From Streptomyces sp. V3I7 (GTDB lineage: Bacteria; Actinomycetota; Actinomycetes; Streptomycetales; Streptomycetaceae), in NCBI RefSeq assembly GCF_030817495.1, contig NZ_JAUSZK010000001.1, positions 3,637,001-3,701,000 of the forward strand: 64,000 nucleotides of DNA. Reading direction: 5' to 3'. Positions 11,953-51,990 of this stretch are shown in pieces. Every line of letters starts with the position of its first letter. Within the stretch, counting starts at the first letter, position 1. The position numbers were made by a program, and so were the translations under genes. The notes beneath the pieces were generated by a model. The model was not told the DNA's origin, did not search any database, and saw nothing but the letters and a program-made list of their open reading frames with translations.

Positions 11953-12662
11953 GGACGCATCCCGTGACCACGAGGACGGCTCCCGCGATCACGAGGACGT
12001 CGCCCGCCGGGACGCGCACGGCTCCCGCGAGTACGAGATCACTTCCCGGAACCGAGGTGGCGGACGGGCCGGAACTGCTCGACGGGGTACGCCGGTGGCT
12101 GGCCGAGAGCGGGGCGGAACCGACGCCTGCGCGCGTGGCGCAGGCGCTGCGCGAGCAGGGCCGCGTGCTCGGTGACGCCGAAGTCCTTGGCGCGGCCGAC
12201 CGGTTGCGCTCCGAACTGGTGGGCAGCGGACCGCTCGAACCCCTGCTCGCCGACCCCTCGGTCACCGACGTTCTGGTGTCGGCGCCGGACCGGGTGTGGG
12301 TGGACCGGGGCGGCGGACTCGAGCTGACCGCGGTGACCTTCCCCGATACGGCGGCCGTACGACGCCTCGCGCAGCGCCTGGCCGCCGTGGCCGGACGCCG
12401 GCTCGACGACGCGCGGCCCTGGGCCGATGCCCGTCTGCCCGACGGGACCCGGCTGCACGCGGTGCTGCCCCCGGTGGCCGTCGGCTGCACCTGCCTGTCG
12501 CTGCGGGTCGTACGGCCCCGGGCCTTCACGCTCGACGAACTCGTGACGGCGGGCACGGTGCCACCCGGCGGGGACCGCGTCCTGCGGGCGCTGCTGGACG
12601 CGCGGCTCTCCTTCCTCATCAGCGGCGGCACCGGCTGCGGCAACCCCAATATGAAGCCATGA
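11949..12662 (+). pseudogene. cpaF: cpaF (tadA) 5' part, interrupted by prophage in the Walker A lysine codon
   Basis: N-terminal 231 host-encoded residues of the hexameric ATPase that powers Tad pilus assembly/secretion. The frame opens at an ATG overlapping the cpaE stop and ends LLDARLSFLISGGTGCG, the first half of Walker A. It then enters phage DNA and stops after NPNMKP. The rest of the gene lies at 51972-52575. Joining 12643 to 51972 gives 1299 bp, exactly 433 codons, with GGTGCGKTTLLSALL restored and Lys232 spanning the junction. The N-terminus has four tandem 7-residue repeats of the TRTAPAI type (11970-12053), so a later start is possible. As it stands the protein lacks the nucleotide-binding site and must be inactive. 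Confidence 0.92.
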
Positions 12663-12673
12663 CACCTCTAGTC
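12614..12673. other. attL (left prophage end)
   Basis: Host cpaF sequence up to GGCTGCGGC, then the shared dinucleotide AA (12642-12643), then phage sequence ending with the arm GACACCTCTAGTC (12661-12673). The arm is the exact reverse complement of the right-end arm at 51940-51952. It lies 17 bp from AA, as does the right arm, which identifies AA as the crossover centre of the serine integrase. Confidence 0.85.
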
Positions 12674-12737
12674 AGTGATCACAATCCGTAGTCTCAATTC
12701 CTGGTGCTGGAGGTGCACATGGCCACATACTCGGCAG

Positions 12738-12971
12738 ATGACCACACTGAAGATCGCCATAGAGGTGGCCGGGCGGGACGGTCGGCTTCGCGACGACGAC
12801 CCTAACGCGGTCATCCACGCCTACGACACCGACGAGGGTGGCTTCCCGTTCCACGGCGCCTTCGATGTCCAGTACATCGTGAAGCCCGACATCGACTGGG
12901 CGCGCCCGCTGCTGCACGGTCGACGCTGCGACACATGTCGTCGCGGGTCCGATGGGGCCGCGGCGGTCTGA
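12738..12971 (+). CDS. Small phage protein next to attL
   Basis: 77 residues, MTTLKIAIEVAGRDGRL...DPNAVIHAYDTDEGGFPFHGAFDVQYIVKPDIDW..., not recognised. It ends with a Cys pair (CDTC). It lies just inside attL and reads inward, so in the lysogen it could be transcribed by read-through from the tad promoter until the terminator at 12981. The ribosome binding site is weak; a strong GGAGGTG at 12709-12715 instead fits a 28-codon frame from 12719 (MATYSADDHTEDRHRGG), which may be translated too. Moderate confidence that the longer frame is the true gene, because of its mixed, protein-like composition. Confidence 0.5.
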   Translation: MTTLKIAIEVAGRDGRLRDDDPNAVIHAYDTDEGGFPFHGAFDVQYIVKPDIDWARPLLHGRRCDTCRRGSDGAAAV

Positions 12972-12980
12972 GCATGAAGC

Positions 12981-13012: not shown

Positions 13013-13028
13013 TTCGAGCGGTGACGGG

Positions 13029-16130: not shown

Positions 16131-16132
16131 CG

Positions 16133-16816
16133 TCATTCGTACTCGCGGCGCGGGTCGAGGCCAGCGGACAGCAGCCCGCCGCCGGTGCCGGGCTTGGGAT
16201 CGGGCGCGCCGTCTCGCCTGCAGACGAGTGCGTCCGGATCCCACGACGGGGCTTGGAGGCTGTAGCTGTCCGGGCAGTTCGGCCCGGCGGGTCCGCGCTC
16301 GCCGGTGTCGCCCTTCTCGCCGCGCTCGCCCTGTGGTCCGGCGGGACCGACGGCTCCGGGGTCGCCCTTGGCGCCTGGGGGCCCGGTCGGTCCGACCGCG
16401 CCTGGTGCTCCGCTCGCGCCTGGGCTGCCGTCGGTCCCGCTCCGGCCGGGCGCTCCGGAGGCTCCCGGCGAACCAGACGGGCCTGGAGATCCGGGTACGC
16501 CGCGCGGTCCGGGCGGGCCCGGGATCGGCACTGGCACCTCAGCCCGGTCGGGGAGGTCTGCGACCGCGCGCGTCGGGTCCGGCGCCACCGGGGTCCCGCC
16601 CTTGGCCTTCACCTGCTGCCGCAGTGCGCGGACGTTCCCCGCCAGCGTGCTCACGGCCTGCCCCCGCAGGTCCGCCTCGTGCGCCAGCTGGTTGGCCATG
16701 CGGTCGCGGTCGATGAGGAGGTACGACACGGCGACCGCGCCACCGAGGAACAGCAGGATGGCGGTCGCCCACAGCAAGTGCCGTGCCTGGTGGAAAACCG
16801 TCTCGGCCCGCGTCAT
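16133..16816 (-). CDS. Membrane-anchored collagen-like phage protein
   Basis: 227 residues. A hydrophobic segment ([22 protein letters not shown]) follows a short cytoplasmic end, then a helical stretch, then about 30 Gly-X-Y triplets ([22 protein letters not shown]... to [10 protein letters not shown]), and a non-repetitive Cys-containing tail. Collagen-like repeats trimerise; in phages they usually occur in tail fibres, so a membrane-anchored form at the end of a lysis cassette is unusual. A spanin-like or envelope-bridging role is possible but not shown. The ATG at 16816 overlaps the upstream stop (ATGA) and has a GGGGGA ribosome site. It is the last gene of the leftward late operon. Confidence 0.85.
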
Positions 16817-17371: not shown

Positions 17372-17677
17372 TCAGGCGGGGATCCAGGCCCCGTTACGGA
17401 CGAAGCCGTGCGTGCCGCAGCACTGCCACAGCAGGGACGGTTCGAGGTGCAGAGGCTCGCGGGCGACGAGCGTGTGTGCGCTTGTCCCGGCCGCCACCCA
17501 CGGGCGGTGGACCGTGCGCTCTTCGGGCAGGGCGGCCATCTTCGGGCACCAGTGCCAGAACGTCGGGTTGGTCTCGTGGGCGAGCCAGCCGTAGTAGATC
17601 TCGTCGGTGAGACGGGTCATGCCGACCATCTCCAGGCCCGGCCAGTCGGACGGTGGCGTACCGCGCGGCGCGCTCAC
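17372..17677 (-). CDS. Phage protein of unknown function downstream of endolysin
   Basis: 101 residues from a GTG at 17677 overlapping the endolysin stop. Trp, His and Cys are enriched (YYGWLAHETNPTFWHWCPKMAALPEERTVHRPWVAAGTSAHTLVAREPLHLEPSLLWQCCGTHGFVRNGAWIPA), resembling small DUF6527-like or metal-binding proteins of actinophages. It is translationally coupled to the endolysin gene. No function is assigned. Confidence 0.65.
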   Translation of the reverse strand: MSAPRGTPPSDWPGLEMVGMTRLTDEIYYGWLAHETNPTFWHWCPKMAALPEERTVHRPWVAAGTSAHTLVAREPLHLEPSLLWQCCGTHGFVRNGAWIPA

Positions 17678-18582
17678 GTGACGACCTCGAAGCCATGCGC
17701 GCGGCCCAGTTGGGTGAGGCTGGTCATGCCGGGGATGCCGTCTGCGGCCGAGCCGCTGTAGCCGAGGTGGCGCTGCCACTTGGCGTAGGCGTCGACGGTG
17801 GCCGATCCGAAGTGGCCGTCGGAGTACGCCTTCGACAGGTATCCGGCGTTGACGAGCGCGGCCTCGACGATCCGCACGCCGCCGTAGGTGACCGGCGTGC
17901 CGCTCGCCTTGGGGTTGGACCTGGCTGCGGCGACCAGCTTGGACAGGTCGACCACCGGCTTCTTCGGCTTCGGCAGCGGGGCGGGCTTGCTGGTCTTGAG
18001 CCGGTCGGCGATCCGGGCGCGCAGCCAGTCCATGCCGAAGCCGCGCGGGTCGACCTTGCCGGGCTGCCACTCCAGGTGCCCGATCACCGACAGCGGGCCC
18101 CAGCCGTGGTGGCGGCAGATCGCCGCGGCGACCCGCTCGATCGCCTCCAGTTGGACGTCGGGCCACGGGTCCTGGCCGTCGCCAAGGTTCTCGCACTCGA
18201 AGCCGTAGAAGTGCCGGTTGCCGTCGACGCTGGCCTCATCGTCGTGCGGCGCCGGCCGTTCGGCGATGACCGCGGCCAGGACGTCGGGGTCGCCCAGCCC
18301 GGCGTGATTGGCGCGGCCGTAGCCGACGAGGTGCACGCGGCCGTCCTTGGCGATGACACCGTGGCACAGCGGGCCGGGCAGGGCGCTGTGTCCGTCGCGG
18401 CAGAGCGCGACCGTGTTGGCGGTGCCGGACGTGACGGTGTGGTGGATCATCACGCCGTTGACGGGCCCCCACGGGCCCATGTGGTTGCGGTTGTGGCGCT
18501 CCCAGTCGCCGACCTCGACGACGGTGACACCCTCCGCTCTGAGCGCAGCAGCGAACTGGGCAGCGGACATCGGCTTTGCCAT
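17674..18582 (-). CDS. Endolysin: N-acetylmuramoyl-L-alanine amidase
   Basis: 302 residues in two domains. The N-terminal Amidase_2 (PGRP-type) domain has the zinc ligands in VMIHHTVTS (His47/48) and in VIGHLEWQPGKVDPRG near residue 190. The C-terminal peptidoglycan-binding domain reads VNAGYLSKAYSDGHFGSATVDAYAKWQRHLGYSGSAADGIPGMTSLTQLG. It cleaves the bond between muramic acid and the stem peptide during host lysis. There is no signal peptide, so release depends on the holin. The ATG at 18582 overlaps the previous gene's stop. Confidence 0.93.
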   Translation of the reverse strand: MAKPMSAAQFAAALRAEGVTVVEVGDWERHNRNHMGPWGPVNGVMIHHTVTSGTANTVALCRDGHSALPGPLCHGVIAKDGRVHLVGYGRANHAGLGDPDVLAAVIAERPAPHDDEASVDGNRHFYGFECENLGDGQDPWPDVQLEAIERVAAAICRHHGWGPLSVIGHLEWQPGKVDPRGFGMDWLRARIADRLKTSKPAPLPKPKKPVVDLSKLVAAARSNPKASGTPVTYGGVRIVEAALVNAGYLSKAYSDGHFGSATVDAYAKWQRHLGYSGSAADGIPGMTSLTQLGRAHGFEVVT

Positions 18583-19440: not shown

Positions 19441-22400
19441 CTACAGTGCGACGATGGCGGGTCGTGCCAGGCGCACCTCGGTGCCCACGTCGTGGCCCTT
19501 GACGATGCCGTTGCGGGAGCGCTGCACGGTCATCAGCTGCGGGGTGACGATCGTGTAATCGTCGTAGCGCAGCTGGGGGTTGGTGTTGGTGTTCCCGGTG
19601 AGCGACGAACCCGCGAGACCGATCTGACCCGTGGCGATGGGCGCGGTGGTGATGGTCTGGTCGGAGTGCCACGTGCCCGGCTCGGCCTGCCCGTCGGGCC
19701 ATGCCCGCACCTGCACGCGGTGCCCGGTGAGGCGGGCCCGTAGCCAGAACCAGGCTCCGGCGGTGTACGTGTACGGCAGCGTGTTGGTGGGTCCGATGAG
19801 GGTGGTGTCCCGGGTGACCGAAGCGAGCATGCCGCCGCCCGGGTTGAAGTGCAGCCGGGCCCGGTAGTAGTTGGCCGCGTCCACGTAGCGGAGCAGGACG
19901 GCTGGGATGAAGCTGGCGCCGGTCGCGATCTGGTCGACGCTCATCCGGACCAGGACCTCACAGTCTGCGATGCCGCCGATGATCCGCTGGAAGCGGACGG
20001 TGTCCTTCGCCGCGGCCAGCGTGATGACGCCCGCCGACCCGTTCACGGACCGGTCTGAGGCGCTGCCGCCGGTCTCCACCCAGGCGAAGCCGCAGTCCGC
20101 CCCGCCCCACGCGCCGGATGCCGTCCGGGTGAAGGTGTCCCATGCCCCCGGCACACACGCGGTGACCCGGGCGGTCTCCCCGCCGAACTTGATGTCGTAG
20201 GGAAACTGCTCCAGGTACGTCGGCGCTGGGCCAGCGGAGGTGATCCACGGGGCGGGCAGCTTGTCGTCGCGCGCGGCCGGGGTGTGGACCACGAGCTGGC
20301 CGGCCGTCGAGGTCGCCGCCACGGCGATGGTGGACGTGCCAGGGTCGGCGTCCACGCGCATCGGCGCCTGCGTCGTGAAAGTGAGATCGTCGATGTGCAC
20401 GGCGTCCTCGCCCCCCGCGGTCGAGGCGTCCTTGGCGTACCGGAACGTCACCGTGCTCGCGCCGGTGACGTCGATGGTGGCGGACGTCCAGGGCGTGGTG
20501 CCCTGCGCGCGGATCACTTGGACGCCGTCGACGAGGACCAGGAGCCGGTCGCCCTCGAAGCCCGTCCCGGACGCCTCGCTGCTGGTCCAGTACCAGAAGG
20601 TCAGCTCGGTGGCGCCGGGCGGGACGGACACGATCGCGTCGCTGGTCTGGTTGTTGGTGATCGTTCCCGAACGCAGGCTCCAGGTGCCGGTGTTGTAGTG
20701 CAGTTGGGACCGTGTCCAGGGCGCGTTGCCGCCGTTGGTGATCGTGACCGCGTAGTCCGTGTCGCTGAAGTCCTCCACGATCCCCACCGCGCCCACCGCC
20801 CACGGCCCGGCCGGCGAGCAGGTGAAGTAGATGTCCCAGCCGTACTGGTCGAACGACTCCGTGTAGCCCTGCACGATCAGGTCGATGTCGCCGGCCGGCA
20901 GCCATCTCGGAGGGTTGGTGATGCGGATCAGGTCGCCTTGGTCGACGCCGAGAACGGAATCGATCAGGTGCGGGGCGGCTGCCAGGTTGACGTGCACCAC
21001 GGGGTAGCGGGGCGCGTCCCATGTGCCCAGGTGCAGCCGCCAGTTGGCGATCGGTTCGGTCTGCGCGTCGTCGGCGAGCGACAGTTGCACGCTGCTCTCG
21101 TAGCGGCCGACTCCGTCAGGCGGGGACTGCACGGACAGGGCGCCGTCCTCGAGGACGGCCCGGCCGGAAGAGCCGTCGATCCGGGTCACGGTGACGTCGT
21201 TGACGGTGTCCGCGTCGTCGTCGACCGGTTCCAGCGGTGGGCCCACCTCCCCGTCGGCCGTGTAGTCGAGCGTCAGGGTCGGCACCTGGCTGTACAGAGT
21301 GGCGCGGTCGCGGTAGTGCAGGCCGGGCCGGGAGCGCTGTTCCATGAAGATGCCGCCGTCGGAGGCAGCGCACTCGGCGAGCAGGTCCAGCAGGGTCTGC
21401 TGGCGCTGGGAGCCCATGAGCTCCTCTTCGGCGATCACGCCGCGCACGGTCAGCGGCACGTCTTCCTCGCGGGCCAGGCGCTGCAGCCGGTGTCCGGCCT
21501 GTTCGCCCTGCCATGCGCTGATGGCGTTCTCGTAGCCGAAGTTGTCGTCGGCCGGCCACGCGGTGATGTGCCCGAGTGCCGTCCCGTCGAGAGCAGGCGA
21601 CCAGCCATCCGGTGGTGAGGCCACTGCGGTCGGGCGTCCGACGGTGCCGCTGATGCTTCCGTTGGTCGCTCCGGAGGCTCCGTCAGGCGGCACCCAGCCG
21701 ATGTGCCAGTCGATGTTGCTGCCGTCCTGGACGACGTTGAACTCGGCCTTCATCCACGTGCCGTAGATGTTGCCGAGGAAGCCCCAACCGGTGGTCTGGC
21801 TGACGAGGGTGCTGCCGTCGCTGTCCTTGGCGAGGATCGTGTAGCCGGTGCTGCTGACCTGGATGTACCACTCGGCAACGGTGCCCGTGCACAGGATCCG
21901 CATCAGGGTGTGCGTGGTGGCGTCCGGCTGGTCGAGCCGGAAGAGCCACTGCACACCCCACTCGGTAAGCGGGGCCGCGGGTCCGGGAATGCGGCCCAGC
22001 ATCTGAGCCAGCGCGCCGCCGCTTGAGGCCAGCACCGGCAGCGGTGCGGAGGAGATCAGGGAGTCGGCCTGGCCCCAGTTCACGTGGGACAGGGTGAGCG
22101 GCTGTACGCCGGGAAGAGGGGAGGATGCCTGGGTGGCCTGGGCGCCTTCCTCCAGGGGCCAGTACGCCAGCGGGCTGTAGGTCGGCAGGCGGCGGCGCAG
22201 CGGGGATTGCAGGGCTGAGGCGCCCTGCCCATAACGGCGCAGTGGTCCGGCCGCGTCCACTGCTGTCCACGCGTCTTTACCCGAGACGTCCCAGCGCGGC
22301 GGCCAGGCGGAGATCTCCCCGCGGAACCGGTCGTCACGCGTGCGCACGGCGGCGGTGCCTTTGACCGTCCACACGCGGCCGACGCTGTCGGTGAAGCTGG

Positions 22401-23262
22401 TGGTGCCGTCGTCGAGGGGGCGGAAGTCGGCGTCGGCGACGAGGGTTCCGTTGATGCCGCTTCGCACCTGGAAGCGGGTGCCGCTGCCGATGAACGGCTG
22501 CCGCGGGGGTGTGGTGGTGGAGTCGGTGGGGCCGATCCGCAGCTCCGTACTGGTGGTCTGAAGTGTCGGGGTTCCGCTGCCGATCAGATCTCCGGAGAAC
22601 AGCGTCCAGGGCCCGTCGATGGAGTCGGCCTGGTAGAAGCGCAGGGTCCAGCCGCCATTCCCGTTGTTGACGTCCAGGGTGAAGCGCAGCGCCCTGCCGC
22701 CGTAGGTGTCGCTCTCGGTGAAGGCGGTGCGCACCGCCTGATCGGATGCCTGCACGAAGTGGAACTGGAGGTAGCCGCCGAACACCCGGAGGATCCAGGA
22801 CCGGTCGCTGGCCGTGTCGCCCCACTTTCCGATGATCGTCTGGTTGAGGGCTCCCCTGGTGAGGTCGGCGTCGAGTTCGACGCGGACGTCGAGGTCGCCG
22901 GTGATGTCCAGCGCGGCCGTGTCCGGGGTGGACACGTAGCCCGAGGCGTCGCCGTTCAGCTCCAGGTGGGCGCTGCCTGCGGGGACGTGGACGCGTACTT
23001 CGGTGTTGCGGCCGATCAGCCCGTACAGGTCGCTGTTCGGGTTGCCGGGGCTGTAGCGCCCGGTGACGGCCGGATTGACCTTGGAGACGCCGTTGTTGAA
23101 GGTGAGCGTGCACTTGCCCGGGTCGGAGCGGGCCCCCTCGTCGGGGCGCCCACGGGTGATGGTCATCAGGTCGCGGGTGTAGACATCCGCGGTGACGTTC
23201 TGCCACACGCCGCCGATCTTCAGGTCCGCCTGGATGTCCAGCGGGGTCTGGGGAAACGCCAC
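19441..23262 (-). CDS. Large minor tail protein with LamG-like domains
   Basis: 1273 residues. The N-terminus (MAFPQTPLDIQADLKIGGVWQNVTADVYTRDLMTITRGRPDEGA) is typical of distal-tail/baseplate proteins of actinophages. Beta-rich modules with AALDITGDLDVRVELDADL and FHFVQASD resemble laminin G/concanavalin-like carbohydrate-binding folds. Another segment (FSDTDYAVTITNGGNAPW ... STVTFRYAKDASTAGGEDAVHIDDLTF) resembles a carbohydrate-binding jelly roll. It probably forms part of the tail tip and binds host surface sugars. It lies directly downstream of the tape measure gene, as expected. Confidence 0.8.
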   Translation of the reverse strand: MAFPQTPLDIQADLKIGGVWQNVTADVYTRDLMTITRGRPDEGARSDPGKCTLTFNNGVSKVNPAVTGRYSPGNPNSDLYGLIGRNTEVRVHVPAGSAHLELNGDASGYVSTPDTAALDITGDLDVRVELDADLTRGALNQTIIGKWGDTASDRSWILRVFGGYLQFHFVQASDQAVRTAFTESDTYGGRALRFTLDVNNGNGGWTLRFYQADSIDGPWTLFSGDLIGSGTPTLQTTSTELRIGPTDSTTTPPRQPFIGSGTRFQVRSGINGTLVADADFRPLDDGTTSFTDSVGRVWTVKGTAAVRTRDDRFRGEISAWPPRWDVSGKDAWTAVDAAGPLRRYGQGASALQSPLRRRLPTYSPLAYWPLEEGAQATQASSPLPGVQPLTLSHVNWGQADSLISSAPLPVLASSGGALAQMLGRIPGPAAPLTEWGVQWLFRLDQPDATTHTLMRILCTGTVAEWYIQVSSTGYTILAKDSDGSTLVSQTTGWGFLGNIYGTWMKAEFNVVQDGSNIDWHIGWVPPDGASGATNGSISGTVGRPTAVASPPDGWSPALDGTALGHITAWPADDNFGYENAISAWQGEQAGHRLQRLAREEDVPLTVRGVIAEEELMGSQRQQTLLDLLAECAASDGGIFMEQRSRPGLHYRDRATLYSQVPTLTLDYTADGEVGPPLEPVDDDADTVNDVTVTRIDGSSGRAVLEDGALSVQSPPDGVGRYESSVQLSLADDAQTEPIANWRLHLGTWDAPRYPVVHVNLAAAPHLIDSVLGVDQGDLIRITNPPRWLPAGDIDLIVQGYTESFDQYGWDIYFTCSPAGPWAVGAVGIVEDFSDTDYAVTITNGGNAPWTRSQLHYNTGTWSLRSGTITNNQTSDAIVSVPPGATELTFWYWTSSEASGTGFEGDRLLVLVDGVQVIRAQGTTPWTSATIDVTGASTVTFRYAKDASTAGGEDAVHIDDLTFTTQAPMRVDADPGTSTIAVAATSTAGQLVVHTPAARDDKLPAPWITSAGPAPTYLEQFPYDIKFGGETARVTACVPGAWDTFTRTASGAWGGADCGFAWVETGGSASDRSVNGSAGVITLAAAKDTVRFQRIIGGIADCEVLVRMSVDQIATGASFIPAVLLRYVDAANYYRARLHFNPGGGMLASVTRDTTLIGPTNTLPYTYTAGAWFWLRARLTGHRVQVRAWPDGQAEPGTWHSDQTITTAPIATGQIGLAGSSLTGNTNTNPQLRYDDYTIVTPQLMTVQRSRNGIVKGHDVGTEVRLARPAIVAL

Positions 23263-23280: not shown

Positions 23281-25533
23281 TCACTTACTGAAAGCGGTCT
23301 GAACGCTGCCGCGCCCGTCGATACGGACGATCTTCCGGAACAGCCTCTTCAGGTCCTCATCTGCGCCGCGCACATCGATGACGACGCGGAGGGGGCCGCC
23401 GCTGGCGGTGGCCGCGCCCATGACGGGCGCCATGCCGGTGGTGAGCGGGCCGTGCACCGCGTCGGCGGTGGCCTGCGTGACGCCCGCCATGGCGCCGGCC
23501 GCCACGCCCTGACGTTGGTGGATGCCGTCGGCCCAGCCCTCCACGAGGGACTGGCCGGAGTACAGCGTCCAGCCCTTGCCGGAGAACGGGCCGACCTTGG
23601 CGGGGCTGAAGGGGAAGTAGTCGCGAGCCGCGCTCACCACGCTCGACACCGCGTTGCGCACGGAGCCGATCATGTTCCGGATGCCGCTGATGAAGCCGCG
23701 GATGAGCGCTGCGCCGGAGTTGTAGAGCAGGCCTCCGAGGTTGCCCAGCGCGTTCCTGGCCCGCCCCGGCAGCCCGCGGACCAGAGAGATGGCTGAGGAG
23801 ATTCGGTCTGCGCTGGCACTGCGGAAACGGCTCCAGGCGCCGCTGGCGCTGTTCCACAGCCGTGAGCCGAGCGGCGACACGGCGGAGGTGATCTTTCCGG
23901 GCAGGCCCTTGACCCAGTTCACGGTGGACGTGGCGACCCGCACCGTGCCGGACTTGATGCTGTCCCAGTGCTTGATGATCAGGCCCGGCAGGGTCCAGTT
24001 CAGGAACAGGTTGACGATCCGGCCGGGGATGGATTTCACGAACCCCCACACCGCATTCCAGGCGGCGGCCGTGCCGGACTTGATGCTGTCCCAGTGCTTG
24101 GTGATCAGGAGCACGGCGAGGCCGATGGGGCCCGTGAGGATAGCCAACAGCAGCGGCCAGTTTCCCTTGATCCAGTTCCACACCGCAGAGATCGCGGTCT
24201 GGACCGCGCCCCACACGGTCGACCACAGCGTCTGGAACCAGGTCGTCTTCGTGGCGATCAGCACGATCACGGCGACCAGGGCGACGATGCCGAGGATGAT
24301 CCATGTGATCGGGGACGCCAGCAGGGCTGAGTTCCACAGCCACTGAGCGCCGGTCGCGACGGCCGTGGCCGCGGCCCACGCGGTCTGGGCGGCAGCCCAC
24401 ACCGTCATCCCGGTGCGGACCGCCAGAACGGCGGCCGCGATCCCGCCGAGGGTGTACGCCAGCGGCTCCATCACGCCCTTGTTGTCCGCGGCGAACTGGA
24501 GGAACGACCCGGACACCTCGGCGAGCTTGGTCATGGCCGTCCGCTTGAAGCGCTCCAGCGTCTTGGCCGGCGATTCCGACAGCGCCTTCATCGCCTTGTC
24601 CGCGGCGCCGCCGACCTGCCCGAGGGCGGACGTCGCCTTCGACGGATCGAGGGCGTACAGGGCGTCCCCGAGGTCCTCGGCCTGGGTGCCGAAGAGTCGC
24701 ACGGCGTTGGCAGCCCGGTCGTTCTTGTCGGGCATCTGGCGCAGCTTGTCGAGCGTCAGGTCGAGGGCGTCCGCCGCGGACTTGCCGCCCTTGCTGATCC
24801 GCTTGGCCATCGTGCCGGCGTCCAGGCCTATGGCCTCGAATCCGGCCACGGTGTTCTTCGAGCCGTCGATGGCCCTGATGCTGAATTCCTTGATGGCGTC
24901 GGCGACGATGTCGGCGTCGCGGGCGCCGGCCTGGAGTCCCTGGGAGAGCAGCCCCATGGCGGTCTGACCGTCCAGGCCGAACTTCCTCCACTGAGTGCCG
25001 TACTCGTTGATGGTGTCCAGCAGATCGTCGGCCTTGTTGGCGCCGGACTGGAAGCCGCGGGTGAGGATGTCGAACGCCTCGTCGGCGTTCTTCGCCAGGC
25101 CGGTCTTGAGCATCTGCCCGACGGCCGCGGTGGTCGGGCCCACTTCCTGGTCGAACGCCTCGGCGAGCGCGAGCGCCTTGCTGGTGAGCCCCTCCAGCCC
25201 GCCTTTGGCCTTCGCCGTGCTGCCGATGTTCTGGTAGACGCCCTTGATGGCCTCATTGACGGTCTCGGACGAGTCGCCCCAGGCCTGCGCGTACACGTCC
25301 GCAGACACCTTGGACAGCTTCGCTGCCTCGGCGGGTCCGACGCCCAGCTGCGCGGTCAGCTTCGCGTTCGCCGCCGACATGTCCAGGGACTGCGCTACAC
25401 CCACCCCGAGGGCGCCGGCCACGCCCGCCGCGATGCCGGTGGCGGCCGTGTCGAACTTCTCCCGGACCTTGCCGAGTTCCTCGCTCGCGCGGTCGCGGGC
25501 TACGAGGTTGAACACGAGTGACGTATCGCTCAT
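23281..25533 (-). CDS. Tail tape measure protein
   Basis: 750 residues. The N-terminal half is TP901-type tape measure (MSDTSLVFNLVARDRASEELGKVREKF ... GLSQGLQAGARDADIVADAIKEFS-like). The middle has hydrophobic membrane-active segments (WIILGIVALVAVIVLIATKTTW). Two copies of KHWDSIKSGT about 60 residues apart reveal internal repeats that set tail length. It is long and coiled and sits behind the frameshifted chaperone pair, which is the invariant siphovirus order. The encoded length suggests a tail of very roughly 110 nm if about 0.15 nm per residue applies. Confidence 0.9.
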   Translation of the reverse strand: MSDTSLVFNLVARDRASEELGKVREKFDTAATGIAAGVAGALGVGVAQSLDMSAANAKLTAQLGVGPAEAAKLSKVSADVYAQAWGDSSETVNEAIKGVYQNIGSTAKAKGGLEGLTSKALALAEAFDQEVGPTTAAVGQMLKTGLAKNADEAFDILTRGFQSGANKADDLLDTINEYGTQWRKFGLDGQTAMGLLSQGLQAGARDADIVADAIKEFSIRAIDGSKNTVAGFEAIGLDAGTMAKRISKGGKSAADALDLTLDKLRQMPDKNDRAANAVRLFGTQAEDLGDALYALDPSKATSALGQVGGAADKAMKALSESPAKTLERFKRTAMTKLAEVSGSFLQFAADNKGVMEPLAYTLGGIAAAVLAVRTGMTVWAAAQTAWAAATAVATGAQWLWNSALLASPITWIILGIVALVAVIVLIATKTTWFQTLWSTVWGAVQTAISAVWNWIKGNWPLLLAILTGPIGLAVLLITKHWDSIKSGTAAAWNAVWGFVKSIPGRIVNLFLNWTLPGLIIKHWDSIKSGTVRVATSTVNWVKGLPGKITSAVSPLGSRLWNSASGAWSRFRSASADRISSAISLVRGLPGRARNALGNLGGLLYNSGAALIRGFISGIRNMIGSVRNAVSSVVSAARDYFPFSPAKVGPFSGKGWTLYSGQSLVEGWADGIHQRQGVAAGAMAGVTQATADAVHGPLTTGMAPVMGAATASGGPLRVVIDVRGADEDLKRLFRKIVRIDGRGSVQTAFSK

Positions 25534-26134: not shown

Positions 26135-26650
26135 TCATCGGGCCCGGGACGCGATGCGCCGGGCCATGTCTTCCATCGCTTGTTCCGCGGCCGCCTTGTA
26201 GATGCCTTCGCGGCCCTGGAACGCGCGGTCGAACCACTCCAGCTTTCCGTGCTGCTGGATCCAGACCTCGCGGTTGCCCCACACGGGGTGGCGCCACCCG
26301 GAGGCTCGGTTGGTGCGCTTGGGCGCGTTGGGGAAGCCGCGAACGTTCTTGGTCTTGAAGGCCTTCACGCGGGCACCGGACCAGCGGCCGCCCAGCTTCA
26401 CCTCAGGCCGGATCTTCCGGGCGATCGCCGACCGCAGCGCGGGCGCGGTCGGCATGAGTCCCGAGCTCGGCATCGCCATGATGCCGCTCTTCGCCTGCTG
26501 CGCTCCGGGCTTGAGCGCCTCGCGCATGTTCTTCGCGAGCTCCTTGCGCAGCTGCTTGCCGTCCTCCTCGGCACGGATCGCACGCGCCAGGGCCGCCAGG
26601 GCGTCGTGTGCTTCCACGCCGAGGGAGAACGGCGGCCCGCCGCTGGCCAT
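26135..26650 (-). CDS. HK97 gp10-like head-tail/tail completion protein
   Basis: 171 residues, MASGGPPFSLGVEAHDALAALARAIRAEEDGKQLRKELAKNMREALKPGAQQAKSGIMAMPSSG..., basic and helical at the N-terminus, Trp-rich later (RHPVWGNREVWIQQHGKLEWFDRAFQG), ending in an amphipathic helix. This composition and the place next to tail tube genes fit the HK97-gp10/tail-completion family. One-base overlap with the tail protein stop. Confidence 0.65.
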   Translation of the reverse strand: MASGGPPFSLGVEAHDALAALARAIRAEEDGKQLRKELAKNMREALKPGAQQAKSGIMAMPSSGLMPTAPALRSAIARKIRPEVKLGGRWSGARVKAFKTKNVRGFPNAPKRTNRASGWRHPVWGNREVWIQQHGKLEWFDRAFQGREGIYKAAAEQAMEDMARRIASRAR

Positions 26651-27060: not shown

Positions 27061-27118
27061 GGGCCCTCCTTCAGGGCGTGACACGGGGCCCAGAGGCGGG
27101 CCAGGATGATCAGTCGGG

Positions 27119-43293: not shown

Positions 43294-43818
43294 TCAGAAA
43301 GGGGGCTCGTCGGAGTAGCCCGCGCCCTGCACCGCGGGCTGCTGCTGAGCGGGCGGGTTGCCCCAGCCGCCGCCCTGCTGCTGGCCATTGGCGGGCTTGG
43401 CCCCGGCCCACGGGTCATCGGCAGGCGCGGCCGCGGCGCGCGAGCCGCTACCCGCCGGGTTCTTCGTGACCTTGGCGGTAGCGCGGGCGAGGCTGACGCC
43501 CACCTCGTCGACGTCCAACTCGTAGACCGTGCGCTTCACGCCCTCGCGGTCCTCGTAGGACCGCTGCTTCAGTCGGCCCTGCACGATGACGCGCATGCCC
43601 TTGGCGAGGGACTCGGCGACGTTCTCGGCGGCCTGACGCCAGACCGAGCACGTGAGGAACAGGCTCTCGCCGTCCTTCCACTCGTTGGCCTGCTTGTCGT
43701 ACACGCGCGGCGTGGAGGCGACGCGGAACTTGGCCACGGCGGCGCCGGCCGGGGTGAAGCGGAGCTCGGGGTCGTCGACCAGGTTGCCAACGACGGTGAT
43801 CACGGTCTCGCCTGCCAT
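43294..43818 (-). CDS. ssb: Single-stranded DNA-binding protein
   Basis: 174 residues. The OB-fold start [38 protein letters not shown] and [36 protein letters not shown] are standard SSB motifs. A Gln/Gly-rich linker leads to the acidic protein-recruiting tail DEPPF (host SSBs end DDPPF-like). The gene is placed beside the prim-pol protein, as in other self-replicating elements. A terminator follows upstream of the next unit. Confidence 0.95.
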
Positions 43819-44318: not shown

Positions 44319-46886
44319 TCAGGCACTCCTAAGGCGTGTTTCTGATACTTCTTTCTTCTTCCAGGAGGAATCCCAGACGAGGGGATGGGGAGCGAACCGC
44401 GGACTCGGGGCCCGGCCGCGCTGCCCCTCCGGCCGCTCGGGCGCGGGAAGCGGGGCGACCCAGCCCTTGTCGACCAGCACGTGGATCGCGTCGTACACGG
44501 TCTCGGAGGTCACGCCCTCCGGCCCCCACGAGTTGCCGTCCACACCGCGCTGAGCGTCCCGCACGGTGAAGGGCTCGCGCCGCTTGTCCTCCTTGCGACG
44601 GCGCAGCCACTCCAGGACGTCCCGGGCCGGCATCAGCTTCGCGTCCCGGTTGGCGCCCATCAGGTCGAGGCACAGTCGGGCGTGGGTGACGAAGTACGGG
44701 GCCATGGCGAGCGCCTCCCGCAGCTGCGCCGCCTGCACCTGGGTGGCGTCCGGGTCCTCGTAGAGGGTGATGAGCGCGGCGATGCGCGCGAGCTTGCCAG
44801 GCAGCTTGCTCGCCCAGGACGCCATGGAGTGCAGGTCGCCGCCGCGCCGCAGCCGCTCCTGCATCTGCTCCTGAAAGAGGTACATCTCTTCGCTGGCCTC
44901 GTCGGTGAAAGTCACCGCGCGGACCATGGTGTTCTTCCACAGCCCGTGGACAAGCCGTCCGAGCCGGTACCGCAGGTCATCCATCAGCTCGGCCGGGATG
45001 GGCACGGAGCCGCGCGGGTCCTGGTAGCCGAGCCGGGACGCCGGGAAGCCGTACAGGAAGCGCTGCACGAACCCGTTGTGCAGCATCTCGTCGTCCTTCT
45101 TCCGGCCGAGCTGCTCCAGGATGATCGGCTGCACGAGCAGGCCGATCGTCAGGTGGGCGCTCTCCATCTCGATGGAGTCCCGGCCGATCCGGTCGACGGG
45201 CATGGCCTTGCCGTCGTAGGCGTCGAGGGCGAACCCGGTGTCCGAGGTGCCGCTGTTGTACAGCCCGCCCATCTGCTTGATGAGGGTGCCCTCGGAGTGG
45301 ATGACGCCCATCCGCCCGCCCTGCTGCGCCGCCTTCACGGGCATCGCGGCCGGGGTGATGTCGCCGAACAGCAGACGGGGCAGGGCGGGCACAGGGCCCA
45401 TCTCCCGCAGCTCCTGCTTGGCGAGCTTGGCCTCGTCCATACGGAGGGCGCGCAGGTCGGGCTTGGCCTTGATTGCGGCCTTCTCGGCGTCGTCGAGGCG
45501 GGCCTGCGCAATCTTCAGCATCTGTTCGGCGTCCTCGATCTCGGGGACCGCCTTGGCCTGCAGCTCGCGCTCGATGGCACGCAGCGTGTCGCTGAAGGGC
45601 GCCTCGGCGGCGCTCTTGCGCTCACCCGCCCCGGCGACGGTGGCCGTCCACAGGGCGGGCGCCTCGGACCAGCCGGGCCGTACTCGGACCTGCGCGCGCC
45701 CGCCGACGGCCACGGAGACGGCCGACAGGGCGATCATCGCGGGGATGTCCGGGGCGACCTGGACCTGCGCGGTGACCGCGTTCACGACGGCCGCAAGGTT
45801 CGGCCCGAGCAGGTCGACGGGGAACGGCGCGAGGGTCGGGCGGTCGATCGAGAGCGGCTCTTCCCAGTCGTCTTCCACCCCTACGGACTGCCTGACAGAA
45901 ATGACAGAACCCTCGGCTGAGGGTTGCCCGGGCAGCAGCCGAGGGCGGTCCTCACGACCCGCCGGGGGCCATGGGTGCCGGGGCTGCGCCATGCCGGCGC
46001 GGAGCCCGGAATCGATCGTCGGCAGCGCGCGCCCCTCTGGGTGGTTCCCAGCGCGCGCGGCGGCGAGCAGGTGCTCACGAGCCTCACCCTCGCTCAGCGC
46101 GCCCGAGCCGACCAGCGTGCCGAGGTTGAACGCGGCCGTGTTGATCGTGTTGTTCTGGTCGCCGTCCGGCGCGCCAGTGATCGCGTCGCACTCGTCCTGC
46201 ACCACCTTGCGGGTGTACGAGTCGAGGCGGTCCGCGGGGATGGTGATCCTGCCCACCGGCGCAGCGGGGGCCGTCGGTCGCGTTGTGAGTGCGTCGAGCA
46301 GCCACTCGGGAGCCTGCTCCGGCGGCTGCTCGGGATCCTCCAACGTGTAGATGACGCCGGACTGGTGGAGCGAGCCGGGGCCGATGACGTAGGCGTTCCC
46401 GGCGCGCACATCACCGTCGAACTTGCCCTTCAGCGCGCCGAGCCCGTTGCCGAGCTTCAGCTCGGCGGGCGCCCACAGGTAGTCGTGGTAGCCCTTGGCG
46501 GTACGGACGCGCATGGTGGTGGGCCAGGTCTCGCCATGGGACTTGGCGACGTCCTCGATGGCTCCGGGCCGGTCGCTGTCCACGACGAGCAGCTGCTCGC
46601 CCTCCGGGCCGCGGCAGGCGCCGACGTACACGCCGACGTTCTGCGGGCGATCGCCGAGGAGACGGCGGACCTTCCCCGAGTCCGTGGTGTGCTCGCGGGT
46701 GAACGGCACGGATGGGTGTTTGCCGCGCTGGCCGCAGGTCGCCGGGTCGTGTCCCTTGCCGATGCCCGAGCACTGGATCAGCTCGGGGTGGTCGACGGGG
46801 AACGCGGCGAACCGGTGCTCGGCGAGCCAGACGCCGCCGCCCACCGGGGTGGACAGGTCGGCAGTCGGCTCCGTCTCATCGGTCAC
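44319..46886 (-). CDS. Bifunctional primase-polymerase/DUF3987 replication protein
   Basis: 855 residues from a GTG at 46886. The N-terminal ~250 residues are a prim-pol domain (GVWLAEHRFAAFPV, then VGVYVGACRGPEGEQLLVVDSDRPGAI with the paired acidic residues, and TAKGYHDYLWAP). A linker with Arg and Pro follows. The C-terminal ~500 residues are a DUF3987-type (YfjI-like) helicase/ATPase region with AGAGERKSAAEAPF at the P-loop position and HLTIGLLVQPIILEQLG. Such fusions initiate replication on phages and integrative elements. GTG start overlaps the upstream stop by 11 bp. Confidence 0.88.
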   Translation of the reverse strand: MTDETEPTADLSTPVGGGVWLAEHRFAAFPVDHPELIQCSGIGKGHDPATCGQRGKHPSVPFTREHTTDSGKVRRLLGDRPQNVGVYVGACRGPEGEQLLVVDSDRPGAIEDVAKSHGETWPTTMRVRTAKGYHDYLWAPAELKLGNGLGALKGKFDGDVRAGNAYVIGPGSLHQSGVIYTLEDPEQPPEQAPEWLLDALTTRPTAPAAPVGRITIPADRLDSYTRKVVQDECDAITGAPDGDQNNTINTAAFNLGTLVGSGALSEGEAREHLLAAARAGNHPEGRALPTIDSGLRAGMAQPRHPWPPAGREDRPRLLPGQPSAEGSVISVRQSVGVEDDWEEPLSIDRPTLAPFPVDLLGPNLAAVVNAVTAQVQVAPDIPAMIALSAVSVAVGGRAQVRVRPGWSEAPALWTATVAGAGERKSAAEAPFSDTLRAIERELQAKAVPEIEDAEQMLKIAQARLDDAEKAAIKAKPDLRALRMDEAKLAKQELREMGPVPALPRLLFGDITPAAMPVKAAQQGGRMGVIHSEGTLIKQMGGLYNSGTSDTGFALDAYDGKAMPVDRIGRDSIEMESAHLTIGLLVQPIILEQLGRKKDDEMLHNGFVQRFLYGFPASRLGYQDPRGSVPIPAELMDDLRYRLGRLVHGLWKNTMVRAVTFTDEASEEMYLFQEQMQERLRRGGDLHSMASWASKLPGKLARIAALITLYEDPDATQVQAAQLREALAMAPYFVTHARLCLDLMGANRDAKLMPARDVLEWLRRRKEDKRREPFTVRDAQRGVDGNSWGPEGVTSETVYDAIHVLVDKGWVAPLPAPERPEGQRGRAPSPRFAPHPLVWDSSWKKKEVSETRLRSA

Positions 46887-49027: not shown

Positions 49028-49279
49028 TTAGGCGCTCTCTCGGCGGGATGCGTATGGCCGGAGTAGGGCCACCAATTCCGTGAGTTCCAGGACGACCGCG
49101 AGTCTGTAGAGAGACTCGATGGACAGTTGCTTCTGGCCTCGCTCGACCTTGGACAGGTAGCCGGGGTCGATCCCTGAGCGTTGAGCAGCGGTCCGCAGAG
49201 TCATCCCCTTGGCCGTCCGGACCGCGCGCAGCGGCGGATGTCCCGCGAGGTCAGTCCCTTGCTTGACTGAGGTCTGCAT
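49028..49279 (-). CDS. XRE-family HTH regulator (repressor candidate)
   Basis: 83 residues, MQTSVKQGTDLAGHPPLRAVRTAKGMTLRTAAQRSGIDPGYLSKVERGQKQLSIESLYRLAVVLELTELVALLRPYASRRESA. It is little more than one XRE/Cro-type helix-turn-helix. No ribosome site precedes the ATG at 49279, so a leaderless message is likely, as is common in Streptomyces. Divergent from the 341-residue regulator over 91 bp; the two probably form a phage switch. Confidence 0.85.
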   Translation of the reverse strand: MQTSVKQGTDLAGHPPLRAVRTAKGMTLRTAAQRSGIDPGYLSKVERGQKQLSIESLYRLAVVLELTELVALLRPYASRRESA

Positions 49280-49370
49280 GTGAACAGACTTGCATCCTGA
49301 TGCCCATGAGTCAAACGTCTGGCCGACTTGAGTCTGTCGAGGTGTTGACCGGTGGACTACAGTGGGCGTC
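49280..49370. promoter_or_regulatory. Divergent switch region between the two HTH genes
   Basis: 91 bp with lower GC. Related short words occur repeatedly: AGACTTGCA (49286-49294), TGAGTCAAAC, and GACTTGAGTC (49326-49335). These are possible half-sites for the HTH proteins. TTGACC occurs about 20 bp before the rightward start, but no well-spaced -10 partner was found. Confidence 0.45.
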
Positions 49371-50396
49371 ATGGATGTCCCCCAGTCATCAAGCGCCGAA
49401 GAGCGGCAGCCCCTCGGTCGAGACGACCTTCCGCTCCGACGGGTGACCATGAACCAAGTGGTCGCGCACAACATCGCTTACTTCCGGAACGCCCTCTCTC
49501 TCACGCAAGAGGAACTCGGAAGTCGCCTTGAGCGGATCACCGGGAAGCGCTGGTCGAAAGCCACCATGAGTGCCGTCGAGCGCAGTTGGGACGGGAATCG
49601 AATCCGGTCGTTCGACGCCGATGATTTGATGGCGCTAAGCCAGGCGCTAGAAGTTCCGGTGACTGCTCTCTTCCTCCCACCCGAGGAGGACGGAACGGTC
49701 ATCGACTACGTGTTTACGAACGTCGGCTCATCCCCCTACAGGGACCGCCTGGTTAAGGGTGGCGGAACGGGTGCCGAGCTGCTGGCTCAGCTCTTCGCTT
49801 CAGAGTACGACTACATGCGGGGCGGCGATGCCTTCCTGGAGCGACTCCAGGAGGCACTCGACTTCTACTACGGAGCGGTGCCTGAGGATTTCTTCATCAC
49901 TCGCCCTCCGGAGCCTATCGATGAGCATGTTGCGGTGGATGAGCAGGTGAATAAACTCCGTCGACAGATCGCGACGCTCCGGGAAGTCATGGCAACTCTC
50001 GATCGAGCAGCCAACAAGCTGGAGGGGCCAGACTCGCCCGATGGCCCTGAGCGCACAGCGCCAAGCGACGGGCCTGATCCGGAGGACGTGGCTCTCTTTG
50101 ATGAGAGGGCGCCGTCGCGGAAGCAGCCTCGATCGAAGAAGGCGGAATTCAGGGCGCTTGGAGAAATGTTCAATCGTGCGCGCAACCGGTCTGGAGCTTC
50201 GTTTCGCGACATTGAGAAGTCAGGGAAATTCCCCCCGTTTGTCGCCCAAAAGATTGAGATGGGTTATTTCGATCACCTCGGTGGCGACGCGAAAGTACGC
50301 GGGTATCTTCGGAGCTATGCGAGCCTCGTGGGACTCGTGCCCGAAGAAGTTCTGAGCACGTATTTCGCGGCCCTGGAATTGCCTGATGAAGAGTAG
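49371..50396 (+). CDS. Two-domain HTH regulator
   Basis: 341 residues from the ATG at 49371. The N-terminus has an XRE helix-turn-helix (MNQVVAHNIAYFRNALSLTQEELGSRLERITGKRWSKATMSAVERSWDGNRIRSFDADDLMALSQALEV). The middle is helical with a coiled-coil (VDEQVNKLRRQIATLREVMATLDRAANKLE). The C-terminus has a second RodZ/XRE-like helical domain (FRDIEKSGKFPPFVAQKIEMGYFDHLGGDAKVRGYLRSYASLVGLVPEEVLSTYF). Markedly lower GC and different codon use than the neighbours indicate foreign descent. It is one of the few rightward genes; likely the lysogeny regulator. Confidence 0.75.
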   Translation: MDVPQSSSAEERQPLGRDDLPLRRVTMNQVVAHNIAYFRNALSLTQEELGSRLERITGKRWSKATMSAVERSWDGNRIRSFDADDLMALSQALEVPVTALFLPPEEDGTVIDYVFTNVGSSPYRDRLVKGGGTGAELLAQLFASEYDYMRGGDAFLERLQEALDFYYGAVPEDFFITRPPEPIDEHVAVDEQVNKLRRQIATLREVMATLDRAANKLEGPDSPDGPERTAPSDGPDPEDVALFDERAPSRKQPRSKKAEFRALGEMFNRARNRSGASFRDIEKSGKFPPFVAQKIEMGYFDHLGGDAKVRGYLRSYASLVGLVPEEVLSTYFAALELPDEE

Positions 50397-50412
50397 GCAT
50401 GCCGAGGCTTGC

Positions 50413-51924
50413 TCAGCGGCTGTACCGCTTCCAGTCGAACGTCACGGCGTCGTAGTCGAAGTACCCGCCGTCCGGCATTCGGCCGGCCCGCGGCGTCTTC
50501 AGCGTCACCGTGACCAGGGATCGCAGCACGTTCCGCTGCCGGTCCAACGGCAGCGCCTTCCACGCCTTCCGCACATCCGGAGCCCCCACCAGGCCGGCCA
50601 GCGGATCCCGCGTTGCTGCGCGGGCCAGCTGCTGTGTCACCCCGTCCAACTGCGCGCGGGCCGTATCCATGCCCTGAGTGAACGGTGCCAGCTCCAGCTG
50701 CCCGGCGCCGAAAAGCCCCGCCAGGTCTGTCATCCGTTGCCGGATCTGCTCGCCCTCGGCCTGTAGACCAGCCACGTCCACGCCGTCCGGCGCCGGTTCG
50801 AGCAGGTCATGCGCGTCCGGCCGTGACAGCCGCTCGACGATGACGTCCTCGACGTACTGGTCGACGGTCTCGGCGCGTCGGCCGCCGCCGTGCCCGGTCT
50901 GGCAGCGATAGCTCGGATAGCTGCGGCCGCCGGACTGGGTGACGTACACGAACTGGTCGCAGTCGCCGCGGCCGCACAGGTACAGCAGCGACCCGAGCCA
51001 CTTCGGCTGGGCACCCGGAGTTGTCGTCCGGGACGGGTCCTTCAGGATGGCTACGACGGCCCTGTGCTTCGTCTCGTCGATGATGGTGTCCCACTTGCCC
51101 TTGCCGACTTCCTCGCCCCTGTAGACGGCGATACCGGCGTTCCTCGGACGCAACAGCATGTCCCGCATGTCGGTGTGCGTGATCGGGTTTCCGCGCGTGG
51201 TGGTGAAGCCCTTGTCGGCGCACCACTGCACGAGCGACCGGATCGACCCGCCGGACAGGATCTCGTCGACCCAGTAGCGCAGCGCCTCGGCTTCCTCGGG
51301 CACGGCCTTCATCATGTCGAGCTCGGGCACCTCGACTTCTTCGCCGGTCTTCCGGTCGACCTTCTTGCGCATCTCTCCGGTCTCGACACCCCAGCCGAAC
51401 GGGCGGATGCCGCCGGTCCATTCGCCGGCGAGGGCCTTCTGCTGGCGGGCGCGGGCGACGCGGTGCCCCTTGTGCTCGGACTCCTGCCGGGCGACGGCCC
51501 CGAGGATCCGCGCGGTCATCCGGCCGGACGGCGTGGCGAGGTCGATCGTCCCGGCCTGCACTGTGTACGTGGCGATGCCGCGGCGGTCGGACAGCTCGAT
51601 GTACTCCTCCAGCTCGACGATCGACCTGGTGAGTCGGTCGGTGTGCCAGACGATGACGACGGTGGCTTTGCCCTGGTCGAGGTCGGCGAGCATGCGCAGG
51701 TAGTCCTTGCGCTTCTTCCCGGAGAAGGCGCTCACGTCGTTGTCGACGTACACCTCGACGACGTCCCAGCCGTTACGTTCTGCGAGGGCTTCGCAGTCGA
51801 TGCGCTGGCGGTCGACGCCGAGGCCGGCGCCGGTGCGGTCCTGGCTGATGCGGCAGTAGATGACGGCGCGAACCTTGGCGCCACCTGCGGCAACGTCCAC
51901 GGCTGAGCGAAGAGTTGGGGTCAT
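50413..51924 (-). CDS. int: Large serine integrase
   Basis: 503 residues. The N-terminal resolvase domain has AVIYCRISQDRTGAGLGVDRQRIDC with catalytic Ser27, VVEVYVDNDVSAFSGKKRKDYLRML and VIVWHTDRLTRS. The recombinase domain follows (GWGVETGEMRKK ... ILSGGSIRSLVQWCADKGFTTTRGNPI). Then come the zinc-ribbon (YLCGRGDCDQFVY ... YRCQTGHGGGRR) and a coiled-coil-bearing C-terminal part. It recombines attP with attB in cpaF; excision needs a separate directionality factor, not identified. The ATG at 51924 is 16 bp from the attP arm, so its promoter overlaps attP/attR. Confidence 0.95.
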   Translation of the reverse strand: MTPTLRSAVDVAAGGAKVRAVIYCRISQDRTGAGLGVDRQRIDCEALAERNGWDVVEVYVDNDVSAFSGKKRKDYLRMLADLDQGKATVVIVWHTDRLTRSIVELEEYIELSDRRGIATYTVQAGTIDLATPSGRMTARILGAVARQESEHKGHRVARARQQKALAGEWTGGIRPFGWGVETGEMRKKVDRKTGEEVEVPELDMMKAVPEEAEALRYWVDEILSGGSIRSLVQWCADKGFTTTRGNPITHTDMRDMLLRPRNAGIAVYRGEEVGKGKWDTIIDETKHRAVVAILKDPSRTTTPGAQPKWLGSLLYLCGRGDCDQFVYVTQSGGRSYPSYRCQTGHGGGRRAETVDQYVEDVIVERLSRPDAHDLLEPAPDGVDVAGLQAEGEQIRQRMTDLAGLFGAGQLELAPFTQGMDTARAQLDGVTQQLARAATRDPLAGLVGAPDVRKAWKALPLDRQRNVLRSLVTVTLKTPRAGRMPDGGYFDYDAVTFDWKRYSR

Positions 51925-51939
51925 GTCCTGAGTGTGCCG

Positions 51940-51990
51940 GACTAGAGGTGTCTTTGTCTCAGGTTCGGGAAGACGACGCTGCTGAGCGCC
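51940..51990. other. attR (right prophage end)
   Basis: Phage arm GACTAGAGGTGTC (51940-51952), 17-bp spacer, shared dinucleotide AA (51970-51971), then host cpaF sequence GACGACGCTGCTG. The arm is the exact reverse complement of the attL arm at 12661-12673. Rebuilt attP has 17 bp on each side of AA, and GGG-AA-CCC at its centre. Confidence 0.85.

Follow-up and report, generated by a model that had tools for sequence, protein, structure and literature searches.

A temperate phage at the Walker A lysine codon of Streptomyces tadA, a pilus motor gene split by several kinds of mobile element

Background

Does a prophage that splits a pilus motor gene serve its host as a reversible switch, or does it sit at the usual address of its own integrase? 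The question is raised by a stretch of 64,000 bp from Streptomyces sp. V3I7 (contig NZ_JAUSZK010000001.1, positions 3,637,001 to 3,701,000; hereafter the window, whose own numbering is used throughout), where a prophage lies inside tadA (also called cpaF), the gene for the motor ATPase of the Tad pilus. A preliminary description of the window had proposed that excision of this prophage gates the formation of surface structures during development. Our best explanation, to which we give a probability of roughly 0.86, is that an apparently complete temperate siphovirus has inserted itself into tadA, with the AA of the codon for the Walker A lysine as its insertion point, that this codon is the usual attB of its integrase clade, and that excision would rejoin the gene, with no host developmental control found. 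The unexpected result is that several kinds of element converge on this one pilus ATPase. Among the top-ranked titles and abstracts from searches of an open-licence full-text library, which leaves out subscription papers and preprints, none describes integration of an element at an attachment site in Streptomyces tadA. Genomes and integrase loci are cited below by our labels (G and L).

The element and its attachment site

How exactly does the element sit in the gene? Host bases 11949-12643 (695 bp) and 51972-52575 (604 bp) form, when joined, a single frame of 1299 bp, that is 432 residues and a stop, and the product reads SGGTGCGKTTLLSALL. The split falls in the codon of Lys232, the ATP-binding lysine of the Walker A motif, and AA makes up the first two bases of that codon. 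The bases around the exchange point are GGC-AA-CCCC on the left and TTCGGG-AA-GACG on the right, with only AA common to both. The junctions and the joined frame thus bear out the coordinates, the open frame and the sequence of the rejoined gene in the preliminary description (its 433 codons are the 432 residues once the stop is counted in), and its assignment of the crossover dinucleotide to the first two bases of Lys232 agrees with AA as the sole shared stretch. The left part of the gene matches positions 2-190 and the right part positions 192-340 of the 340-position NCBIfam profile for TadA family ATPases, TIGR03819, position 191, the lysine, being the sole one missing between them. Scanned separately the parts score 253.6 and 255.6 bits, where the cut-off of 373.15 applies to the whole protein; against PF00437 they score 81.9 and 132.7 bits, both above the cut-off of 24.9, as expected of a TadA/CpaF ATPase. 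In the integrated state the left part stops after 237 codons (stop at 12660-12662).

Genes without an insertion tell what the site looks like before it is occupied. All 59 empty tadA genes, which were picked by hand from about 150 better-scoring rows and are therefore biased to good matches, are in frame across the site and free of stops over 190 codons. The lysine codon is AAG in 58 of them and AAA in one, so that AA is invariant, and the flanking codons for GGTG-GKTTLL are nearly so. The comparison with strains lacking the prophage, which the preliminary description had called for, therefore found a continuous gene at the join in every case and not a differing sequence. Together with the joined frame, these empty relatives support its claim that exact removal of the element at AA would restore the host gene.

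What enzyme could have made such a junction? The attP deduced by rejoining both ends of the element (62 bases) is a dyad with AA at its centre and 13-bp arms. It pairs at 23 of 30 positions, while 20,000 shuffles averaged 8.5 and never exceeded 18, and a chance dyad is thereby ruled out. Short identical core and dyad attP are both as expected of a large serine integrase, and the gene for one lies at the right end of the prophage (Table 1). Prophages of this kind in Streptomyces have a 2-bp core, a dyad attP and a site inside a conserved host gene. The V3I7 prophage is like phiC31, phiBT1, phiJoe and Samy in its PF00239/PF07508 integrase and differs from them in its attB, the Walker A codon of tadA; its integrase is 34-38% identical, over 93-96% of the length, to the best 20 records of the phage collection. 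Most likely, then, the prophage's own integrase chose the AA of tadA, and reversal would probably require a directionality factor coded by the phage.

To judge from its gene content, the element is the prophage of a siphovirus, apparently complete and equipped with a large serine integrase. A scan against PHROG covered 40 selected ORFs, a part of those predicted; 27 matched and 13 did not. Head, tail, lysis and replication genes are all present (known here from the genes alone), and the matches also include connectors. The start codon of the integrase gene is separated from AA by 45 bases and the gene reads into the phage, so integration would exchange any promoter upstream of it for antisense DNA of tadA. 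In Samy the integrase gene is likewise reported to be parted from its viral promoter on integration and yet still expressed (PMC12924846). Near the left end of the prophage a GntR/UTRA regulator (15318-16073, plus strand) lies on the strand opposite to most phage genes.

The same site in related genomes

Is this site peculiar to V3I7? When 392 genomes of the same genus were searched with the integrase (E <= 1e-80), it was matched in 15 and tied to tadA in 11, V3I7 among them. Both halves of tadA lie on one contig, about 35-41 kb apart, in G000, G041, G170, G235, G248, G277 and G359; they are on separate contigs in G221 and G321, only attR is seen in G139, and a contig of the metagenome-assembled genome G198 carries the 5' half and ends exactly at AA. 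The gene is unsplit in G249, G378, G209 and G167, where the integrases stand at 62, 46, 44 and 38%. Named genomes gave 49 integrase loci, and 24 of these, all from Streptomyces (L144-L167), have 62-86% identity to the V3I7 integrase (P0001) by best segment. In 22 of the 24 tadA follows from codon 233 just beyond attR, and 21 of the 22 retain the lysine AAG. As for the exchange point, attL reads GGN-AA-CC in all nine readable occupied sites. The two ends in G277 likewise share only AA, and other occupied sites with both ends readable have a longer shared stretch with AA within it, except G321, where AA is gone from the right end.

Individual loci show some variation. The attR of L158 (in G321), the remaining one of the 22, has lost about 11 bases and with them the lysine codon, and its prophage may be locked in by this damage. 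L156, a named record whose integrase occupies the contig position seen in G198, has AAG and 20 further tadA bases (23 in all) at the contig end, behind a different phage arm, and the contig of L154 ends short of AA. The contigs of G198 (L097/L347) and L154 thus end at the crossover or a few bases from it; such ends are expected where split and unsplit forms coexist, and they could also be chance. L153, L155 and L163 are among the few loci with about 300-400 bases between attR and the integrase match. In L348 (G041), at 185-1425, part of tadA is present a second time, inverted, behind the 3' half. At L175 (143-870) a Geodermatophilus integrase (39%) lies beside a cut TadA-like ATPase, which was rejected as a case of the same site because the cut is about five codons downstream of the lysine.

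Viral records agree with the genomes. Among 46 viral loci, 23 show an unsplit attP, six a tadA attR and one (L026) neither, and 16 have a flank shorter than 60 bases; an unsplit attP is therefore found in 23 of the 30 with sufficient flank, some of these stretches being identical to each other. The protein search scored 7998 integrase candidates, 1261 of them at E <= 1e-60, and the best 120 were all at least 80% identical. The V3I7 terminase was compared across 41 genomes and records (30 of the 46 viral loci and 11 genomes, where records may be fragments): identity was 68-91% in 13 and 31-36% in 14, and no match was found in 14. Because the terminases differ in this way, the integration module is common to different phages. 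Judged from these junctions, the lysine codon of tadA is the usual attB of this Streptomyces integrase clade.

Several points weigh against this interpretation. Both halves are on a single contig in seven genomes only, and each named locus gives just one of the two junctions. The clade has no sharp border of identity near 62%: the integrase of L168 (61%; listed above as G249, 62%) lies on the border and yet is inserted in another gene, as is that of L169 (56%). The site is not uniform either, with a damaged attR in L158/G321 and another phage arm in L156/G198. In the viral records attP was located by a script that searched for this very motif, so that its AA is no independent observation. Nothing in the prophage itself could be recognised as a directionality factor beyond a weak HTH/excisionase-like match at 40536-41393, and the activity of integrase and phage is something we infer from their genes.

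Other elements in tadA

Is the phage alone in its choice of tadA? Weak matches to the 3' half were re-examined in 19 of 295 genomes and in G301, outside these 295. The gene proved to be split in at least 20 of the 295 (about 7%; 19 of 294 without the V3I7 window), at three sites; this is a lower bound, the poorest rows of the tadA search having been judged by best E-value and integrase search only. The Walker A site accounts for eight genomes (G000, G041, G139, G170, G221, G235, G248 and G277). Ten others are split at the codons for TGHEGGC, by three kinds of element. Five (G011, G067, G083, G090 and G272) have elements of 8.6-10.1 kb with a different serine recombinase; in G011 (L213, 1079-11062) the element is about 10 kb and its recombinase 23% identical to the V3I7 integrase. 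One ORF each of the elements in G090 and G272 has prohead protease and capsid domains, and an ORF with a D5-type primase domain is found in the element of G301, which is of the same kind and about 8 kb long. In G092 (L330) and G149 (L333) there are elements of about 5 kb with two tyrosine-recombinase ORFs each, which we take to be RIT-like. The remaining three, G066, G169 and G276 (L331, L332, L334, L335, L345 and L346), have TniQ elements with TGTCGG...CCGACA ends, 27 kb in G066, 32 kb in G169 and on separate contigs in G276; the 5-bp target duplication is exact in G066 and G276 and unclear in G169. The third site is near the codons for ANQEG, in G178 (L336, L337), where a tyrosine-recombinase ORF adjoins the split, and in G227 (L338), where one end is seen and two scanned ORFs gave no match. 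Walker A is a catalytic motif, and the other two sites presumably code for catalytic motifs as well.

Not counted among the 20 are G198 (probably a Walker A case), G180, whose 3' half ends at residue 131, and five genomes (G008, G046, G050, G102 and G152) in which the search gave either the paralog alone or nothing. Both a Walker A prophage and a break at TGHEGG seem to be present in L015 and L167. In L047 (4387-4623) the 3' half breaks off at about residue 79, possibly by a second insertion.

Is the insertion a developmental switch?

The Listeria comK prophage and the sigK skin element of Bacillus and Clostridioides likewise split a coding gene that exact removal would restore. Would V3I7 then turn on its Tad pilus by a regulated, stage-specific and non-lytic exit of the same kind? 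The exact restoration of the frame agrees with this, and so does the state of the interrupted gene: none of 26 occupied 3' halves has a stop in 180 codons, and the gene is under purifying selection, with a median ratio of nonsynonymous to synonymous substitution rates (dN/dS) of 0.093 in the 26 occupied and 0.075 in the 59 empty genes (Mann-Whitney p 0.049), where two of the 26 are probably the same gene, distance to the nearest empty relative confounds, and L163, L167, L015, L047, L154 and L156 were left out (unknown bases, second break, no sequence). Low dN/dS is, however, equally expected of recent insertions, and near-equal purifying selection would fit either recent insertion or frequent excision. 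Relaxed selection was also considered as a clock of insertion and is a weak one, with so small and confounded a difference. The contig of G198 that ends at AA would be expected if split and unsplit forms coexist, but a single contig end can be chance.

Against a switch stands the distribution of the element. Copies linked to tadA occur in 11 of 392 genomes, dispersed over the tree, and no retention in a lineage as part of a programme, as with skin, was found among them. On the tadA gene tree, occupied genes are mixed in among empty ones: a quick tree of 81 3' halves (22 occupied and 59 empty, no shuffled control) requires 13 or more changes of occupancy. Moreover, the prophage has a broad lytic gene set, and other elements, transposons included, split tadA elsewhere; TniQ transposons are not known to leave precisely. 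With this rarity, these repeated changes, the complete phage gene set and the other elements in the same gene, the developmental gate of the preliminary description is not upheld, and a regulated switch seems very unlikely. The complete gene set and sporadic presence set the V3I7 prophage apart from skin, and the comK prophage shares both. Because the comK prophage too is sporadic and complete, active lysogeny of that type is compatible with the data. On the whole, tadA is likely a favoured target of several kinds of element rather than a developmental switch.

Why tadA?

There is a further question, why have phages, transposons and other elements come to this gene? Mechanistically the target was probably used because tadA is near universal, its DNA is very conserved at the site, and either the host can do without this pilus or the element profits from its loss; several other kinds of element have converged on the gene. 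Whether the element gains anything is where explanations part. The one we put at close to an even chance is that tadA is simply a conserved and dispensable gene, from whose loss the element has no gain. The DNA around the lysine codon is nearly invariant in the 59 empty genes, and it is nothing unusual for a serine integrase to use a conserved gene, as Samy does with one for a radical SAM protein (PMC12924846). Several kinds of element in one gene, however, exceed the habit of one integrase, and a tadA paralog, with a Walker A stretch closely similar to that of tadA, is largely spared. The paralog is weak or missing in six of the 295 genomes (G050, G102, G115, G119, G139 and G150), five of which are assemblies of at least 460 contigs, all six being judged by the match alone. 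The difference in splits between tadA and paralog has a Fisher p of 0.006 if five paralog cases count and 3e-6 if none does; as one gene against one paralog, searched in different ways, this control is a lead rather than a survey.

Another explanation is a conflict within the genome, in which elements disable a DNA-uptake Tad pilus and so prevent being cured by transformation. This has been argued for comYC, comFA and comK (PMC4774983) and proposed for comM as well, and we regard it as a possible but minority reading here. It draws on the splits in at least 20 of 295 genomes, at three sites and by several kinds of element, with a paralog doubtful in at most six. The link to uptake comes from the actinobacterium Micrococcus luteus, whose transformation depends on tad genes (PMC4322843). 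The ComEC-type domain PF03772 is found in 279 of the 295 genomes, V3I7 included. Among the 16 genomes without the domain, tadA is split, truncated or missing in six, against 21 of 279 with it (Fisher p 0.0014). The six joint cases are G041 and G198 (split), G180 (truncated) and G008, G050 and G152 (missing). The association is suggestive only: four of the six (G008, G050, G152 and G198) are assemblies of at least 740 contigs, where absence may be an artefact, only G041 and G198 are insertions, and PF03772 also occurs in E. coli, used as a control. G180, in two contigs, is the cleanest joint loss of the ComEC-type domain and an intact tadA. Further, DNA uptake through the Tad pilus in Streptomyces has no support in this analysis, the convergence could simply reflect DNA conservation and dispensability, and five genomes yielded the paralog alone or nothing.

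A third explanation is superinfection exclusion, where the pilus is the receptor of other phages and the prophage removes it. Tad pili act as phage receptors in other bacteria, and loss of the pilus is the predicted outcome of the insertion. Transposons in tadA would be unexplained unless they gain too, and one search of the open-licence full texts gave no paper joining Tad pili, Streptomyces and a phage receptor. We consider this improbable.

Two known groups of elements come close to the present case. The comM elements (Tn6022-like and Tsy) are alike in that one conserved ATPase motif is hit by different elements, their target overlapping the Walker B motif (PMC10293859). Those in comYC and comFA target a DNA-uptake gene (PMC4774983), while the target in V3I7 is the Tad pilus motor, whose role in uptake is hypothetical. 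It is tempting, though speculative and rather doubtful, to take tadA as the Streptomyces counterpart of comM and comYC, with phages, satellite-like, tyrosine-recombinase and TniQ elements having independently evolved to hit its motifs and so stop curative DNA uptake or pilus-borne infection.

The host locus and features of the window

What would the host lose while the prophage is in place? The preliminary description had cpaF inactive in the integrated state; the split through the Walker A lysine codon is there, and the inactivity of the Tad motor is a prediction from it. The genes tadZ, tadA, tadB, the tadC-like gene and those for the DUF4244 and TadE proteins are codirectional, and tadZ-tadA (the stop of tadZ overlaps the start of tadA, ATGA), tadA-tadB and tadB-tadC overlap, with start codons chosen by hand. 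Because these genes overlap and the integrase reads inward, tadB, the tadC-like gene and the pilin-like genes would be cut off from the upstream promoter, and a polar loss of the genes downstream of the split is likely. This agrees with what had been suggested at the outset, as does the direction of the integrase gene (50413-51924, minus), away from tadB. Since a second, unsplit TadA-like ATPase is kept in the same genome about 0.65 Mb away (36% identical to the N part and 48.5% to the C part), total loss of Tad function cannot be assumed. The tad genes had also been placed next to bldG. They are indeed close to a STAS gene (57836-58177), whose product we take to be BldG-like, but a DEAD/MrfA-type helicase gene (55203-57407) lies between.

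Table 1. Coordinates of the tad locus, the attachment sites and the prophage genes in the window
Feature	Position	Strand	Evidence
tadZ/CpaE-like gene (actinobacterial Ssd), start codon not settled	10723..11952	+	TIGR03815, 358 bits, cut-off 154
5' part of tadA (codons 1-231 and AA of Lys232)	11949..12643	+	TIGR03819 2-190, joined frame
Crossover dinucleotide AA, attL	12642..12643		only bases common to both ends
Prophage, 39,328 bp	12644..51971		junctions, PHROG matches
attP dyad arm, prophage left end, GACACCTCTAGTC	12661..12673		dyad analysis of joined ends
Collagen-like minor tail / tail fibre protein	16133..16816	-	phrog_1806
Endolysin	17674..18582	-	phrog_880, E 1.6e-78
Large protein with phosphodiesterase-annotated match, probably tail associated by position	19441..23262	-	phrog_5313, phrog_24476
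Tape measure protein	23281..25533	-	many tape-measure PHROGs; top single match phrog_971, annotated endolysin
Two major tail proteins (26650-27060, 27119-27856)	26650..27856	-	phrog_4574, phrog_9522
Major capsid protein	29829..31250	-	phrog_2263
Head maturation protease	31392..32198	-	phrog_7053, phrog_80
Portal protein	32195..33373	-	phrog_12
Terminase large subunit	33557..35116	-	phrog_9
FtsK/SpoIIIE-like protein	37595..39709	-	phrog_1358, PF01580
Single-strand DNA-binding protein	43294..43818	-	phrog_44
Helicase/primase	44319..46886	-	phrog_2373, phrog_5852
HTH regulator, candidate repressor	49028..49474	-	PF01381, phrog_5823
Large serine integrase P0001, 503 aa	50413..51924	-	PF00239 3e-32, PF07508 4.7e-10
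attP dyad arm, prophage right end, GACTAGAGGTGTC	51940..51952		dyad analysis of joined ends
Crossover dinucleotide AA, attR	51970..51971		only bases common to both ends
3' part of tadA (last base of Lys232 to stop)	51972..52575	+	TIGR03819 192-340
tadB-like, overlapping tadA	52559..53428	+	PF00482 T2SSF
tadC-like by position only, no NCBIfam match	53425..54210	+	position, overlap
DUF4244 small protein, pilin-like by size and place	54335..54472	+	PF14029
TadE-like protein	54495..54860	+	PF07811
DEAD/MrfA-type helicase gene, between tadE and STAS gene	55203..57407		
STAS anti-sigma antagonist	57836..58177	+	PF01740

Conclusions

The clade that uses the Walker A lysine codon of tadA offers several new serine integrases that share one highly conserved attB. 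At least 20 of 295 sampled species have the near-universal tadA split while its paralog is largely spared, which suggests that something about the Tad pilus matters to mobile DNA. If tadA were indeed the counterpart of comM and comYC, Streptomyces would have, or would recently have had, natural transformation that depends on the Tad pilus.

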